A DNA stretch of 64,000 nt, from positions 1,984,001-2,048,000 of the forward strand of contig NZ_CP048272.1 in the NCBI RefSeq assembly GCF_019469425.1. The letters are read 5' to 3'. The first letter of the stretch is position 1; each line of letters opens with the position of its first letter. Under the pieces are notes generated by a model. That model was not told the DNA's origin, searched no databases, and saw only the letters and a list, made by a program, of their open reading frames with translations. Of this stretch, positions 14,300 through 20,848 are shown piece by piece. The translations under genes and the position numbers were made by a program. This DNA comes from Bifidobacterium asteroides. Its GTDB lineage: Bacteria > Actinomycetota > Actinomycetes > Actinomycetales > Bifidobacteriaceae.

Positions 14300-15652
14300 T
14301 TACCGCCCTTGGTCAGGCAAAGCTTCCGGCGCGGTAAGCTCCCTGATATTGCCCTTGTCTGAATCGATCATGTCGACCGAGTCGATGACCTTGGAGGGAT
14401 CCATCTGCTGCAGCTTGCGGGCTGTGACCAGAACGCGCGACTCCAAAGAGGAAGCGAACTTGTTGTAGGCGGTCACCGTGGCAGTGATGGAACGGCCCAG
14501 TCTGTTGGCCCGATCGCCCAGAACCACAAAGCGGTCATAGAGCTCGTGGGTCAACGTGAAGAGGGTGCGAGCGTCCTCGGACAGGTTCTGCTGCTGCCAG
14601 GCATAGGCTACCGACTTGAGCACAGCCCAGAGGGTTACCGGCGAGGTCAGGGCCACCTTTTGGGCAAAGGCGTCATCCATCAGGGTAGGGTCCACCTCCA
14701 GGGCGGCCTGCAGAAGGGAGTCGTTGGGGATGAAGGCCACCACGAAGTCCGGGGCCGTTTCGAAGGCGTTCCAGTACTCCTTGTCCGCCAGGGCCTTGAC
14801 GTGCTCGCGCAGGGCCCGGGCATGCGCCTTGAGCAGTTCGTCCCGGCGGCGCAGCTCATCATCCGAAGCAGTGTCGGGGATCTCGCAGGCCCGCTGGTAG
14901 TCGGAATAGGGGGCCTTGGCATCGATAGGAATGGTCTTGCCACCGGGCAGGTGAACCACCATGTCGGGACGCAGGACGCGACCATCCGAGGCGGTGACCA
15001 CCACCTGGGTGTCGAAGTCCACATGCTCCAAGAGCCCCGCCGACTCGACGATATTCCTGAGCTGAGCCTCACCCCATGCGCCGCGCACCTTGTTGTTGCG
15101 TAGGGCCGAAGCCAGGGAGCTGGTCTCCTTGTCCAGTCTCCCCTGCTGCTCGCCCAGACTCTTCAGCTGCTGTCCCAAGGAGCCCATCTCCTGCTTGCGG
15201 CCCTCCTCGATCTGGGCCACCTTATGCTGGAGGGCATCCAAATTCTTTTGCACGGGGGCCAGAGCCGAGAGCACCTTGCTCTCCTCCTCCATGCTCTCTG
15301 CCTGCCTGCGCCGCTTCTCCTCCTCCTGAGCCTGGGCGCGGCGGCGCTCCTGCTCGATTCTGATCTGCTCCGCCTGCTGGGCCTGGGCCAGCTGGGACTT
15401 GACAAAGGAGAGCTCGCGGTTCAGACCGTCCACCTTGGTCCGTGCCTCGACCAGGGCCGCATCGGATCCATGGAGCTGTTCCTGGGCCTGATCCAGCTGA
15501 GCGCGCAGTTCATCCACCTGGCCGTCGGACCCCATGCCGACGGCCCTCCGGCCCTGGGTGCGACCCAGCACATACCCTGCCAATCCCCCCAGGACTATAC
15601 CGATCAGCAGGAGAAGCACCACCATGACCACTGATGACGTAGAATCGAACAT
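14300..15652 (-). CDS. rmuC: DNA recombination protein RmuC
   Basis: 450 residues. A single membrane helix at about residues 7-27 (VVMVVLLLLIGIVLGGLAGY) anchors the protein. A long charged coiled coil with runs of Gln, Glu and Arg follows (about 40-190), then the RmuC domain with GAWGEAQLRNIVESAGLL and the PD-(D/E)XK-like core (LPGGKTIPIDAKAPYSDY). RmuC limits DNA inversion and illegitimate recombination. The start codon lies inside a LexA-like palindrome and has no strong Shine-Dalgarno sequence, so the transcript may be leaderless and damage-controlled. Confidence 0.94.
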   Translation of the reverse strand: MFDSTSSVVMVVLLLLIGIVLGGLAGYVLGRTQGRRAVGMGSDGQVDELRAQLDQAQEQLHGSDAALVEARTKVDGLNRELSFVKSQLAQAQQAEQIRIEQERRRAQAQEEEKRRRQAESMEEESKVLSALAPVQKNLDALQHKVAQIEEGRKQEMGSLGQQLKSLGEQQGRLDKETSSLASALRNNKVRGAWGEAQLRNIVESAGLLEHVDFDTQVVVTASDGRVLRPDMVVHLPGGKTIPIDAKAPYSDYQRACEIPDTASDDELRRRDELLKAHARALREHVKALADKEYWNAFETAPDFVVAFIPNDSLLQAALEVDPTLMDDAFAQKVALTSPVTLWAVLKSVAYAWQQQNLSEDARTLFTLTHELYDRFVVLGDRANRLGRSITATVTAYNKFASSLESRVLVTARKLQQMDPSKVIDSVDMIDSDKGNIRELTAPEALPDQGR

Positions 15653-15658
15653 ATGTTC
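15647..15658. promoter_or_regulatory. LexA-like box overlapping the rmuC start codon
   Basis: GAACATATGTTC is a perfect palindrome matching the actinobacterial SOS pattern GAAC-N4-GTTC, and the rmuC ATG is its second half. A bound repressor would block transcription or initiation. The 8 fixed bases are expected about once by chance in a window this size, so position is the main support. Confidence 0.5.
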
Positions 15659-15815
15659 TAGTTAACCTCAAGCACTGGACCCGAAAACCAGGTTGCCGGC
15701 GATAATTCGAGAATTCGTTTTTTCCGCAAGGAATCGGCCTTAAGACCTGTGCCGGGCCGCGATGAAGGGCACAATAGGAGATATTAAGGGGTTGGAGCAA
15801 GACCGAAGGAGATCC

Positions 15816-17891
15816 GTGGGTGTCGATATCTTCCTGGCGATAGCAGATCTGGTCGTGGCCTGTGCGGTCACCTGGCTGATCATCTGGTACTTCCTTATGC
15901 CATCGGCTCATGCCAGTGGCCAGGAAGCAGCCGCAGACTCCCCAGCCAACCGCCCCTGGCGTGATCCCGAGGACTGGGGCAAATGGGGGGCTGATCTGGA
16001 TTCTCGCAGCCACCGCCTGCTCAGGCCAACCATCGTAAGTGCCCTGCTGACCGCGCCTGTTTTAGTTCTGGATCTGTTCGATCGCTTCGGCCCCGATCTG
16101 ATTCCTTCTTGGCTGACCAGCCCCTGGGTCCAGGCTATTCTGATAGCCCCGGTCATCTTCTACGGCGGCCGTGGAACACTCACAGGCGGGTGGAAGGCCA
16201 TGACCGAGCACCGCTGCAGCCCCGATCTCCTGGCCGCGCTGGCCACAAGCCTGGCCTACCTATACAGCCTGGCTACCTGCCTGGCTGGATCCCTGCTGCC
16301 GGAGGGCTCCCGATCCCCTTACTTCGATCTGGTCGGCGTGGTCATCACCCTCCTGCTACTGGCCCGGGTCATCGGCACCAGAATGGAAGCCTCCCTGGTG
16401 GCTTCCTTGAACCACTTGACGGAGATCCGCCCAGCCTCAGGTCTGGTGGCCGATTCTCAGCATCCTCAGACAGTCCCCGCCCAGATACTTGCACGTGACC
16501 AGATCCGCCCAGGCAATCTGCTTCTGGTACGTACAGGCGAGCGCCCAGCGGCCGATGGGCTTGTGGAGTCAGGATCGGCCCTGGTGGACGACAGCGAGCT
16601 GACAGGTGATGACAGACCCCGGCCGTGCGGACCCGGCGATCGAATCCTGGCCTCCAGCAAGATCCTCGAGGGTCGACTGTCCATCCGAGTGGATGCCGCC
16701 GGCGACAACACCTATGCAGCCAGGCTCGTGAAGATCATCCCCCAGGCCCTGGTCGAGCGATCCCCCGCTATGCGCAGGATGGATCGTATCGTCCACACAG
16801 CCATCGCCCTGATCATGATTCTGGCTGTCTGGACCTTCATGCTCTGGCTCATGCTGGGCCCGCAGCCCCACTTGGCCCATGCTGTAGGCAATGCCGTCTG
16901 TGTACTGACCATCGCCTGCCCCGCCGTCGCAGCCATGACCATCCCCATGGCCTTCCGAACCAGCCTGGAGACGGGTCTGGCACACGGTCTGCTCTTCACC
17001 TCGCCACGGGCCATGAACCACCTGGGCCGGGTGCACACCCTGATTCTGGATGACTCCTCTCTGCTGGATCCCGACGACGCGGAGGGCCAGGGTGTCCACA
17101 CGGAATCCCTGACCCGGACCGCCACCCATCTACGCGCCCTGCGAGTAAGCAGCCTGATCCTGGACGGGAGCCGCCAGCCGGACGACAGGATTGAGCGGGC
17201 AGCCCGCCAGGCGGGCGCGGATATGCTGATCACCCGGCTGACCCCCGAGCGCAAGCGCGAATGCATGGATCGGCTCAATCACGACCTGACCCGGACCAAC
17301 AGGGGCATCCCACTTGATCAGACAGGTCAAGACCCAGCATCCGCCGTGAGGCAGGGCCGAACCAGCCTGGTGGCCCTGGCAGCTGGGACCACAGCGGATC
17401 CCGAACTGACGGCCAGGGCTCAGGTGGACATCGCTTTGGGTCCAAAACTCCAGGCTGACACGGACGAAGCCGCAGACGACATCGACCTACCACAGCCGGA
17501 CCTTATCCTGCAGCAGGGCGACCTGGACGGAACCAGTAGGGCCATAGAACTGAGCCGAGCCACCACCCAGGTCATCAGGGAGAACCTGACCTGGTCCACT
17601 GTCTACAACGTCATCGCCCTGGTCATTGCTACCGGAATCTGCCAACCCTTCCTAGGCTGGATGCTCAACCCCATGATCGCAGCGGTAACAGGGGCTCTGT
17701 CCTCCATCCTGGCCATGCTCAACGTTCGTCGTCTGCACCGGTTGCGGCGCCTGCGCCGTCGCTGGCTACACCTCGCCCTGATCGACACGGACCAGCTTCC
17801 GACAGTCGCGGCACGACGCCCCCAGATCATCGTTGACAGCCAGTGGAAGCCCATGCAAAAGGGCAGGGACCCAGCTGCTGCTATGGACTGA
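15816..17891 (+). CDS. P-type-ATPase-like membrane protein lacking the catalytic motifs and nucleotide-binding domain
   Basis: 691 residues from the GTG at 15816, chosen for AAGGAG four bases upstream; an ATG at 15762 adds 18 residues without a ribosome site. Membrane helices are placed as in copper/heavy-metal P1B pumps. The actuator domain is clear (PGNLLLVRTGERPAADGLVES, then VDDSELTGDD), but its TGE reads TGD. The transmembrane CPC is CPA (ACPAVAAMTIP). The phosphorylation motif DKTGTLT reads DDSSLLD, with the Asp kept and the rest lost. Only about 40 residues separate it from the segment matching the TGD region (LDGS), so the ATP-binding domain is deleted. GDGxNDAP is AAGTTADPEL. The frame is intact and well preserved, so this looks like a retained pseudoenzyme, not a decaying gene. 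Confidence 0.85.
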   Translation: MGVDIFLAIADLVVACAVTWLIIWYFLMPSAHASGQEAAADSPANRPWRDPEDWGKWGADLDSRSHRLLRPTIVSALLTAPVLVLDLFDRFGPDLIPSWLTSPWVQAILIAPVIFYGGRGTLTGGWKAMTEHRCSPDLLAALATSLAYLYSLATCLAGSLLPEGSRSPYFDLVGVVITLLLLARVIGTRMEASLVASLNHLTEIRPASGLVADSQHPQTVPAQILARDQIRPGNLLLVRTGERPAADGLVESGSALVDDSELTGDDRPRPCGPGDRILASSKILEGRLSIRVDAAGDNTYAARLVKIIPQALVERSPAMRRMDRIVHTAIALIMILAVWTFMLWLMLGPQPHLAHAVGNAVCVLTIACPAVAAMTIPMAFRTSLETGLAHGLLFTSPRAMNHLGRVHTLILDDSSLLDPDDAEGQGVHTESLTRTATHLRALRVSSLILDGSRQPDDRIERAARQAGADMLITRLTPERKRECMDRLNHDLTRTNRGIPLDQTGQDPASAVRQGRTSLVALAAGTTADPELTARAQVDIALGPKLQADTDEAADDIDLPQPDLILQQGDLDGTSRAIELSRATTQVIRENLTWSTVYNVIALVIATGICQPFLGWMLNPMIAAVTGALSSILAMLNVRRLHRLRRLRRRWLHLALIDTDQLPTVAARRPQIIVDSQWKPMQKGRDPAAAMD

Positions 17892-17916
17892 ATCCACAGA
17901 GCACGGCAGCTAACGT

Positions 17917-17955
17917 AAAAGGGCCGGCACCTGGAGATTATCCCGGTACCGACCC
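17917..17955 (-). terminator. Rho-independent terminator of clpB
   Basis: On the minus strand, 11-base arms (17945-17955 and 17921-17931) pair fully, with two G-U wobbles, and are followed by TTTT. The structure lies 10 bases past the clpB stop. Confidence 0.7.
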
Positions 17956-17964
17956 TGATTGATC

Positions 17965-20742
17965 TCAGTGAGTCTGGCCCTGACCTTGGTCATCGCCACG
18001 CGCAGCATGACGGCCACGGCCACCATCGCGTCCGGCATCGTCGGCATCAGCATCACCGTCAGCCGTCACACCATCGACCTTGACCGAATCATCGACCAGA
18101 TTCTCGGTGGGCCAGGCAGTCAGTTCCAGATGGTCGCCGCCGGTTTGGTCCACTAGGACCGTGTCACCGTCGTGGACCTTCCCGGCAAGCAGCATCCTAG
18201 CCAGTTGGTCGCCCACCTCAGTCTGCACCAGCCGACGCAAAGGACGGGCGCCGAAGGCCGAATCGTAGCCCACGTTGGCCAGCCACTCCCTAGCGGAGTC
18301 GGTGACATCCAGGGTGATACGCCGATCGGTCAGCCGTTGGGCCACTTGCCGGACCTGGATATCCACAATGGAACCCAGCTCGTCACGGGTCAGCGGATGG
18401 AAGATGACCAGATCATCCAACCGGTTGATGAACTCGGGCTTGAAGTTGGCGTGGACAGCATCCATGACGGCCTTGCGCTTGGCCTCCTCATCCAGGTCGT
18501 CCCGGACCAGGAACTGCGAGCCAAGGTTGGAGGTCATGATCAGGATGGTGTTCTTGAAGTCCACCGTCCTGCCCTGGCCGTCAGTCAGCCTGCCGTCGTC
18601 CAGAACCTGCAGGAGCAGATCGAAGACTTCAGGGTTGGCCTTCTCCACCTCGTCGAAGAGTACCACCGAGTAGGGCCGCCGACGCACGGCTTCGGTCAGC
18701 TGGCCGCCCTCCTCATAGCCCACGTAGCCGGGAGCAGCGCCGATCAGCCGGGAGACCGAGGCCTTCTCCATGTACTCCGACATATCGATGCGGACCATGG
18801 CCTTCTCGTCGTCGAAGAGGAAGTCGGCCAAGGCCTTGGCCAGCTCCGTCTTGCCCACGCCGGTGGGGCCCAGGAACATGAAGGATCCAGTGGGCCTGTC
18901 AGGGTCGGCGATGCCGGCACGCGAGCGCCGGACCGCGTCGGAAACTGCATGGATGGCCTCTTTCTGGCCGACCACCCGCTTGCCCAGGTAGTCCTCCATA
19001 TGCAAGAGCTTCTCATTCTCGCCCTCCATGAGCCGCCCCACAGGGATGCCGGTCCAATCAGAGACGATCTCCGCTACGGAATCCGCATCAACGTGGTCAG
19101 GAACCATAGGCTCCTGGGCTGGCCCCCCAGCGATGTCAGCCCCATCGGGACCAGCATCATTGGAGGCGTTCTTAGCCTGCTCGGCGGCGTTCTCCGCCTG
19201 GGCCAACTGCTTGCGAATGCCTGGAATCTCCCCGTAGAGAATGCGGGAGGCCTTCTCCAGATCACCTTCGCGGGTAGCCTTGTCGGCCTCGACCCGCTTG
19301 GCGTCCAGCTGAGCGCGCAGGTCACCGACCTTGTTGTGGCCAGCCTTCTCGTTCTCCCAGCGGGCCTTGAGGCCGCCCAGCTTTTCGCGGGAGTCCGCCA
19401 GCTCGGCCTGCAGCTTGCTCAGACGGTCCTTGGAGGCCGGGTCATCAGCCTTCTTCAGCTGCATCTCCTCCATCTCCAGACGGGTGACGCGACGTTGAAG
19501 CTCGTCGATTTCCTCAGGCTGGGAGTCCAGCTCCATCCGCAGATGTGCAGCGGCCTCGTCAACCAGGTCGATGGCCTTGTCTGGCAGCTGACGACCCGAG
19601 ATATACCGGTTGGAAAGGGTGGCCGCAGCCACCAGGGCATCATCCCCGATGGTCACCTTGTGGTGGGCCTCATAACGCTGCTTGAGACCACGCAGGATGG
19701 CCACGGTGTCCTCCACGGAGGGCTCGCCCACGAAGACCTGCTGGAAGCGGCGCTCCAGAGCCGGATCCTTCTCGATGTTTTCACGGTATTCGTCCAAGGT
19801 GGTGGCGCCGATCAGGCGCAGTTCGCCCCTGGCCAGCATGGGCTTGAGCATGTTGCCCGCATCCATGGATCCCTCGGCGGCACCAGCACCGACGATGGTG
19901 TGGATCTCGTCAATGAAGGTGATGACCTGGCCGTTGGCGCTCTTGATCTCATTGAGGACGGCCTTGAGTCGTTCCTCGAATTCGCCACGGTACTTGCTGC
20001 CAGCCACCATGGAGCTCAGATCCAGGGAGATCAGCTTCTTACCTTGCAGGGTGGTGGGTACGTCGCCCGCCACGATACGCTCAGCCAGGCCCTCGACCAC
20101 AGCGGTCTTGCCCACGCCGGGCTCTCCGATGAGGACAGGGTTGTTCTTGGTACGCCGGGAAAGGATCTGCATGACACGACGAATCTCCTGGTCCCTGCCG
20201 ATGACTGGATCCAGCTTGCCCTCCTTGGCCTGTGCGGTCAGATCGGTAGAGTACTTCTCCAGGGCCTTGTAGGTGCCCTCGGCATCCGGGCTGGTCACCT
20301 TGGCGCCGCCGCGCACCTGGGGCACGGCCTTGCGCAGGGTATCAGCCTGCAACCCGTTCCGGTTCAGAATATCGGCGGCCTGCGAGGGACCCTGGGCGAT
20401 GGCGATAAGCAGGTGCTCGGTGGAGACGTATTCATCCCCCATGGCCTGCATTTCCTTCTCAGCCTGGGCCAAAGCCATGCTGAGCTGACGGCTGGCATCG
20501 GGTTGCGAGGCCGTAGATCCGCTGGCCGATGGCAGAGCCACCAAGGCCTGACGGACCTCGGCTCCGACCCGTTGGCTGTCACCACCGGCCGCTTGGATCA
20601 GCCCAGGCACCACGCCGGACTGCTGACGCAGCAGAGAGTCCAACAGATGGAGCACATCCACCTGGGGGTTGCCGGCCGCCGAGGCCGACTGGATAGCATC
20701 GCCGATGGCCTGCTGAGCCATGGTGGTGAAGTTTTCGTTCAT
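17965..20742 (-). CDS. clpB: ATP-dependent disaggregase ClpB (Hsp100)
   Basis: 925 residues from the ATG at 20742, which has GGAGG seven bases upstream; a longer in-frame N-terminus has no ribosome site. Order: Clp N-domain repeats (1-150), AAA+ domain 1 with Walker [11 protein letters not shown], the M-domain coiled coil (about 400-560), then AAA+ domain 2 with Walker [11 protein letters not shown] and a C-terminal D2 small domain. A 30-residue Ala/Gly/Pro/Asp-rich insert sits at the end of the M-domain, and a His/Asp/Gly-rich tail closes the protein. With DnaK it rescues aggregated proteins. A HAIR operator upstream points to HspR control. Confidence 0.96.
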
Positions 20743-20848
20743 AGAGCATCCTCCAACATTCTTCGGCGGGACCAGCCGAATCACTCGACCAGACCCCGTC
20801 ACGGGTTCATCTGTCTTCTACAACAGCGAAAGGAGGACACCTATTCCC

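Follow-up and report, generated by a model that had tools for sequence, protein, structure and literature searches.

A conserved P1B-type pseudopump of Bifidobacterium and its catalytically complete relatives without an N-domain

P-type ATPases are taught as pumps with three cytoplasmic domains, A, P and N, of which the N-domain brings the ATP. The gate in the membrane is normally under the control of the A and P domains. The copper ligands of the P1B-1 pumps reside in the motifs CPC, YN and MxxSS. Pseudoenzymes, such as the pseudokinases, have lost their catalytic residues while their fold is conserved under selection. Neither a P-type ATPase without an N-domain nor a P1B pseudopump was found in the full-text search results, which were shown in part and for the most part did not extend to subscription papers, and the available part of a P-type ATPase review (PMC10654040) contains nothing on loss of the N-domain. 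The P1B fold itself is known, and a pseudopump of this fold that derives from a P1B subfamily without an N-domain appears to be new.

Such a protein appears to be encoded in a stretch of 64,000 nucleotides of Bifidobacterium asteroides DNA, here called the window. The nearest named relatives of the source genome (2.23 Mb) are Bifidobacterium asteroides, mellis, apousia, choladohabitans, polysaccharolyticum and mizhiense, which we take to be bee-gut bacteria. The canonical CopA (TIGR01511; PDB 3rfu) resembles the protein in its membrane helices and in the order of its A and P domains, which align over residues 91 - 464 and 534 - 661. Unlike CopA, the pseudopump lacks the N-domain, DKTGT, TGE, TGD, GDGxND, CPC, and the cupredoxin and YHS domains. 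A paralog that does contain the N-domain is present in the same genome. It is a canonical CopA, a frame of 1001 residues with a cupredoxin domain, a P1B core with N-domain and a YHS domain, and it adjoins a gene that we assume from its sequence to be CsoR-like. The pseudopump resembles the pseudokinases in having lost catalytic residues from a fold kept under selection, but it is a whole membrane pump, in which the nucleotide domain appears to have been lost first and the chemistry later.

The pseudopump gene and its motifs

The pseudopump gene occupies positions 15816 - 17891 of the forward strand, as do all its features described below. The reading frame is open from an ATG at 15762, which would give 709 residues, and the residue numbers used here count from this codon. 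However, the GTG at 15816 is the most likely start, resulting in a protein of about 691 residues, because the Shine-Dalgarno-like stretch GAAGGAGA (AAGGAGA, 15806 - 15812) stands just 5' of it and because a relative (G009) has an in-frame TAG 5' of the matching codon. A consensus scan of positions 15500 - 18100 found neither promoter nor terminator signals. The preliminary description of this DNA, made from the letters alone, had recognized a complete frame of more than 2 kb encoding a P1B-like protein, and this has proved right. E1-E2_ATPase (PF00122) is the sole Pfam model above its cut-off (E 3.8e-30, residues 244 - 402) and the copper efflux ATPase 3rfu is the best PDB relative by sequence (3.6e-56), which establishes P-type ATPase homology over the membrane and actuator domains. 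The best NCBIfam model, the copper P1B family TIGR01511, gives 202 bits, below its cut-off of 397.

Hydropathy reveals an N-terminal membrane helix, TM0 (15828 - 15884), and seven of the eight helices of the pump; the eighth was placed by alignment to 3rfu. TM0 is conserved in 14 representatives of the degenerate family, and its amino acids are unchanged at the median pair. Its counterpart in the intact relatives is the anchor that precedes the cupredoxin domain.

The catalytic motifs are altered throughout. In the remnant of the actuator domain (16377 - 16796, matched by E1-E2_ATPase) TGE has become TGD (16602 - 16610, residues 281 - 283); of the 13 closest genomes, 11 have TGG at this site. 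ACPAVA replaces ACPCAL in the membrane (16914 - 16931), so that CPC is changed to CPA (residues 386 - 388) and the second metal-binding cysteine is gone. The phosphorylation motif, by which P-type ATPases are recognized, is absent, DKTGTLT being replaced by DDSSLLD (17049 - 17069, residues 430 - 436). Likewise, LDGS stands in place of (T/S)GD (17160 - 17171, residues 467 - 470) and AAGTTAD in place of GDGxND (17379 - 17399, residues 540 - 546). Each of these readings, already given in the preliminary description, was correct, as was its estimate of about 40 residues between the phosphorylation site and the LDGS region. The former phosphorylation Asp is 38 residues from the TGD position, whereas the canonical CopA of this genome has 171 residues there, and the N-domain is therefore absent. 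Its site is taken by a short linker (17070 - 17159), and about 120 - 150 N-domain residues are missing relative to the CopAs of the family. The linker also lacks the tyrosine found at this junction in the intact pumps described below, and the intact catalytic set of those pumps is lacking as well.

Of the copper ligands, the YN pair is kept, whereas CPA stands for CPC and GALSS for MxxSS; the entry Met, the Met of MxxSS and the second Cys of CPC have all disappeared. Since there is no phosphorylation or phosphatase motif, no N-domain and few copper ligands, ATP-driven copper transport by the window protein is excluded as far as a sequence can exclude it.

Conservation and selection within the genus

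A homolog is present in all 27 genomes examined from the genus of the window (g1), and the pseudopump is thus not a product of chance. All the copies are degenerate. DKTGT is absent from each of the 27, and the other motifs are eroded to differing degrees. The gene is flanked by two genes on the reverse strand that we take from their sequences to be rmuC (14300 - 15652) and clpB (17965 - 20802). In 27 of 27 loci the pseudopump has a divergent rmuC on its upstream side and a convergent clpB on its downstream side, confirming the association with clpB that the preliminary description had thought worth following, together with a conserved family and its dN/dS ratio.

The median dN/dS of the pseudopump is 0.134 among 13 close genomes, obtained by a simple counting method without a significance test from 76 of the 78 pairs, two having been removed by a dS filter. 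This value falls inside the range of the neighboring genes (0.026 - 0.207; 10 - 13 genomes each), which are, under the names assigned here, clpB (0.026), a FAH-family gene (0.060), rmuC (0.066), pyrE (0.086), YggS (0.118), TrmH (0.149) and an ABC ATPase (0.207). Every region of the protein, with names again assigned here, is below 0.25: TM0 0.000, linker 0.241, M1-M4 0.094, A-domain 0.075, M5-M6 0.057, P-domain remnant 0.174, M7-M8 0.116 and tail 0.082. At least 13 of the 14 representatives agree at 99 positions, mostly in the membrane segments and the loops between them. The window protein retains TM0 and the membrane helices, two loops (PEGSRxPYF and GPQPxLAHA), the tail motif RPQ[IV]I, and Asp430 and Lys498. 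The gene appears to be under purifying selection at present. It is not a peculiarity of one strain, nor is it plainly in decay. At the median pair the first 32 codons (15816 - 15911) are free of amino-acid changes, and their dS is only 0.138, compared to 0.26 - 0.53 elsewhere in the gene; an overlapping signal is possible there.

Frameshifts in close strains had been named beforehand as a sign of decay. The copy of G015 (L070), the only split copy in the genus, consists of two overlapping frames of 231 and 450 residues; the other 26 of the 27 copies are single open frames.

The copies represent different stages of erosion. The TGE region of the A-domain is missing altogether in G001, G002, G012, G021 and G026 (L068, L061, L065, L071 and L063). 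Motif decay is less advanced in G016, G005 and G006 (L062, L064 and L066), which have kept CPC. G024, G023 and G015 (L067, L069 and L070) retain both CPC and SDG[IF]EN, a relic of GDGxND, and G024 retains TGE as well.

Intact relatives without an N-domain

A search of 189 genomes of the family, combined with motif tables and a junction probe, found homologs of the same architecture in 56 of the 162 genomes outside g1 (47 in genus g5, four in g3, four in g11 and one in g15). All 56 lack the N-domain and yet are intact. The preliminary description had counted the missing N-domain as part of the catalytic death of the window protein. The protein does remain a conserved, dead P1B-like protein, but the loss of the N-domain is not part of its death.

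The distance from DKTGT to SGD in the 56 pumps is 48 - 69 residues. In canonical pumps it is 155 - 188 when aligned to their own TGD (four CopAs) and 149 - 253 by a first-match script (48 pumps), apart from one early match at 101 in a pump whose GDGxND is at 210. The motifs TGES, CPC, DKTGT, SGD and GDG[IV]ND are present in 56 of 56. More generally, 25 catalytic and copper-site positions, which include the entry Met, TGE, CPC, DKTGT, SGD, the motif-III Lys, GDG[IV]ND, YN and MxxSS, are canonical in all of them except for Ser in place of Thr in TGD. The HP motif of the N-domain is found in none of the 56 but in 32 of 32 canonical sequences, a set that includes four CPH types and one sequence with Asp in that place, and from which the P-type paralogs of the source genome (L004 and L005) were kept out. 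A plain EHP string occurs in six N-domain-less pumps. Seven of the 26 degenerate copies also match the HP pattern, and 18 of them, together with four of the 56, match GxG. In our opinion the matches to these two patterns are due to chance, because the sequences have no room for an N-domain.

The point of excision has a signature of its own. Y..D..[KR]..[SA] is present there in 56 of 56 N-domain-less pumps, with an invariant tyrosine, whereas Y..D..[KR] is present there in none of the 32 canonical sequences. Cupredoxin motifs were found in all 56 and the YHS motif in 53; Pfam confirms both domains in the pump of G041. This pump exceeds the TIGR01511 cut-off (504 versus 397 bits), so annotation pipelines may overlook the missing N-domain. 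Ten pairs of N-domain-less pumps have dN/dS values of 0.10 - 0.26. The pseudopump shares with these proteins the absence of the N-domain, the N-terminal anchor helix and often the locus, whereas they have retained the catalytic and copper-site residues, the cupredoxin and YHS domains and, often, csoR.

The locus is indeed frequently the same. Upstream of the intact pumps, rmuC is divergent in 46 of 56 loci (it is present at 48 in all), and clpB is downstream and convergent in 25 (present at 29), with both in 22. In L150 (G044) the order is that of the window: TrmH, pyrE, rmuC (-), pump (+), clpB (-). L150, L072:5389-8103 and 54 further loci make up the whole set of intact N-domain-less pumps, which is spread over four genera. 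An intact pump at the same locus in a related strain had been proposed as evidence against a pseudopump. Such pumps do exist, but only in other genera and not in g1; they show the ancestry of the window protein and do not revive it.

A csoR homolog is divergent near the pump in 40 of the 56 intact loci, in 33 of them at the 5' end of the pump, within -400 to +600 bases of its frame; none was found in the stretch examined at the remaining 16. No csoR was found at any of the 27 degenerate loci, two of which (G007 and G018) were available with flanks of only 1.5 kb.

In the largest genus, g5, the N-domain-less pump appears to stand in for the canonical CopA, since the two were never found together. 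Of its 112 genomes (G040 - G151, a membership read from the order of labels and from the rows listed), 47 have the N-domain-less pump, 51 a canonical CopA, recognized by a match of the CopA P- and N-domain probe at about E 3e-41 or better, 14 neither and none both. The exclusion has a Fisher p of 2.9e-19, a value without correction for phylogeny. Two genomes were inspected and then excluded from this count, namely G143, whose second pump is a CPH type, and G088, whose pump of 640 residues yielded neither CPC nor CPH to the script; when both are retained the overlap is 2 of 112. All 48 of the canonical g5 pumps inspected have CPC and the spacing of an N-domain (G135, G138 and G142 of the 51 were left out). 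Furthermore, among all 30 P-type ATPases found in seven N-domain-less genomes, the N-domain-less pump is the only CPC pump apart from the TPCP types, the others having PEGL-like, TPCP or KdpB-like motifs. A pump with the motif TPCPLL is present in the source genome (L005) and in all seven of these (L201, L204, L207, L209, L211, L212 and L215).

No canonical CopA was found in the locus arrangement of the N-domain-less pumps among the 14 of 16 canonical loci where the script placed the pump. In G045 a canonical CopA is beside rmuC and pyrE, and in G174 beside clpB, each in a different orientation.

Outside the Bifidobacteriaceae, a probe of 162 residues with DKTGT at 14 - 18 was run against 396 genomes of the order (E <= 1e-24, family members included) and 396 of the phylum (E <= 1e-25). 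The N-domain-less junction was not seen among the matches listed. No listed match from outside the family starts before probe residue 12, although diverged pumps below these thresholds could escape. Matches starting at residues 12 - 20 came from ten outside genomes: G547, G286, G299, G429, G410, G455, G456, G813, G885 and G683. Six of the ten were checked as candidates (G547, G286, G410, G813, G885 and G683), and all six have the normal N-domain spacing. Contigs of G818 and G778 contain only a partial gene, without DKTGT.

The N-domain might also be supplied in trans. A CopA N-domain probe at E <= 10 gave matches in three of 11 N-domain-less genomes, all of them within frames of 439 - 810 residues; none was short enough to be a stand-alone N-domain, although a far-diverged one could escape such a search. 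The leading options for the phosphoryl donor are acetyl phosphate and ATP bound with low affinity. According to the available parts of the respective papers, acetyl phosphate can power transport by SERCA (PMC7961605), a pump with a blocked nucleotide site still hydrolyzes it (PMC4215238), and bifidobacteria make it from fructose-6-phosphate and xylulose-5-phosphate by XFPK in the bifid shunt (PMC5315409). The SERCA precedent and the bifidobacterial supply make acetyl phosphate a natural candidate, on which a copper pump without an ATP-binding domain would perhaps be working; low-affinity ATP is its sober rival. A more far-reaching proposal, which we consider doubtful but worth stating, is that the intact orthologs form a new class of P-type ATPases, copper-efflux pumps phosphorylated directly by acetyl phosphate, that the junction tyrosine helps to hold the donor, and that the window protein represents a lineage in which this chemistry later disappeared while the protein persisted as a pseudopump in the membrane.

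These N-domain-less, catalytically complete and often csoR-linked P1B pumps appear to be the larger discovery behind the pseudopump. With purifying selection, a link to a copper repressor and an apparent substitution for CopA, they make P-type pumping without ATP binding directly testable. The pseudopump is the end point of the lineage, where the chemistry has been removed and the membrane part kept; together they provide a natural series on what the pump fold does without catalysis.

Order of the losses and proposed role of the pseudopump

A tree was calculated with IQ-TREE from 486 columns, the N-domain columns having been removed, and 74 of 116 rows, thinned by hand. The split copy was omitted from the tree and from the table of sites, leaving 26 of the 27 degenerate copies. 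The canonical sequences are on one side of a branch with a support of 100/100. Among the N-domain-less rows, all 17 degenerate ones group together with a support of 88/79; they comprise three clades, whose stem branches measure 0.73, 1.09 and 1.99 changes per column. By the shared absence of the N-domain, the same locus and its position in the tree, the window protein belongs to the N-domain-less P1B clade as defined here.

The loss of the N-domain and the loss of catalysis are separate events of different age. The simplest reading is a single loss of the N-domain, followed by a loss of catalysis in g1. The former is not forced, because no single branch separates the intact N-domain-less rows from the rest, and two changes are needed for them. 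With the moderate support and the long branches, catalysis may also have been lost more than once within g1. On balance, the window protein probably descends from a copper-efflux P1B pump already without an N-domain, and has itself died secondarily and been re-purposed.

Comparison of the sequences shows two steps. In an ancestor within the Bifidobacteriaceae, a CopA-like pump with a cupredoxin domain, P1B core and YHS domain shed its N-domain and retained every catalytic and copper-site residue; csoR is near it in many genomes. In the genus of the window, a canonical CopA is found in every genome examined (27 of 27 with a CopA-like match that covers N-domain residues, E <= 4e-57). There, the N-domain-less copy is without csoR, the cupredoxin and YHS domains, the DKTGT/TGE/TGD/GDGxND set and most copper ligands; it changed fast along long branches and appears to be under purifying selection now. 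The outcome would be a membrane protein that is neither catalytic nor involved with copper. Its helices and outer loops would be the working parts, and it would most likely serve other membrane components as a scaffold or as a regulatory partner.

Two residues might support a reduced phosphate chemistry, in which a small donor would phosphorylate the protein at Asp430 and Lys498, and the membrane domain would be switched with no copper being pumped. The HAD nucleophile Asp and the motif-III Lys are each present in 24 of the 26 degenerate copies, and some such chemistry could therefore still occur. Nevertheless, it is unlikely, as the Lys of DKTGT is kept in none of the 26, the Glu of TGE in one and the Asp of TGD in two, GDGxND is mostly gone, and the five copies mentioned above have no TGE region at all.

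It is also improbable that the protein lets a metal or some other small solute pass as a passive carrier or pore. The pump has kept its membrane core, with dN/dS of 0.057 - 0.116 in its regions, and the YN pair is well kept (Tyr in 24 and Asn in 26 of 26). However, the second Cys of CPC is found in only five of the 26 copies, the entry Met in one and the Met of MxxSS in five, and the gate of a P-type pump normally depends on the A and P domains.

A slowly decaying pseudogene, its function lost and its frame still unbroken, is quite improbable. The loss of all motifs, the split copy, the five copies without a TGE region and the stem of 1.99 changes per column, which leads to 12 degenerate rows, would all fit such a gene. 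Against it are a dN/dS within the range of the neighboring genes, the 26 unbroken frames and the 99 conserved positions.

The preliminary description had proposed a metal sensor, a scaffold or a passive carrier. The metal sensor is the least likely of the readings considered here: in spite of the descent from a csoR-linked copper pump and the first Cys of CPC in 23 of 26 copies, this idea is weakened to the point of being very unlikely, since cupredoxin and YHS motifs are found in none of the 26, most other copper ligands are gone and no csoR was found at the degenerate loci. A scaffold or regulatory partner is the role that we favor.

The C-terminal tail contains the motif RRPQIIVD (17814 - 17837). 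A related motif is present in 21 of 26 degenerate copies, in eight of the 56 intact N-domain-less pumps and in none of the 32 canonical sequences, and its core, RPQ[IV]I, could serve as a docking motif.
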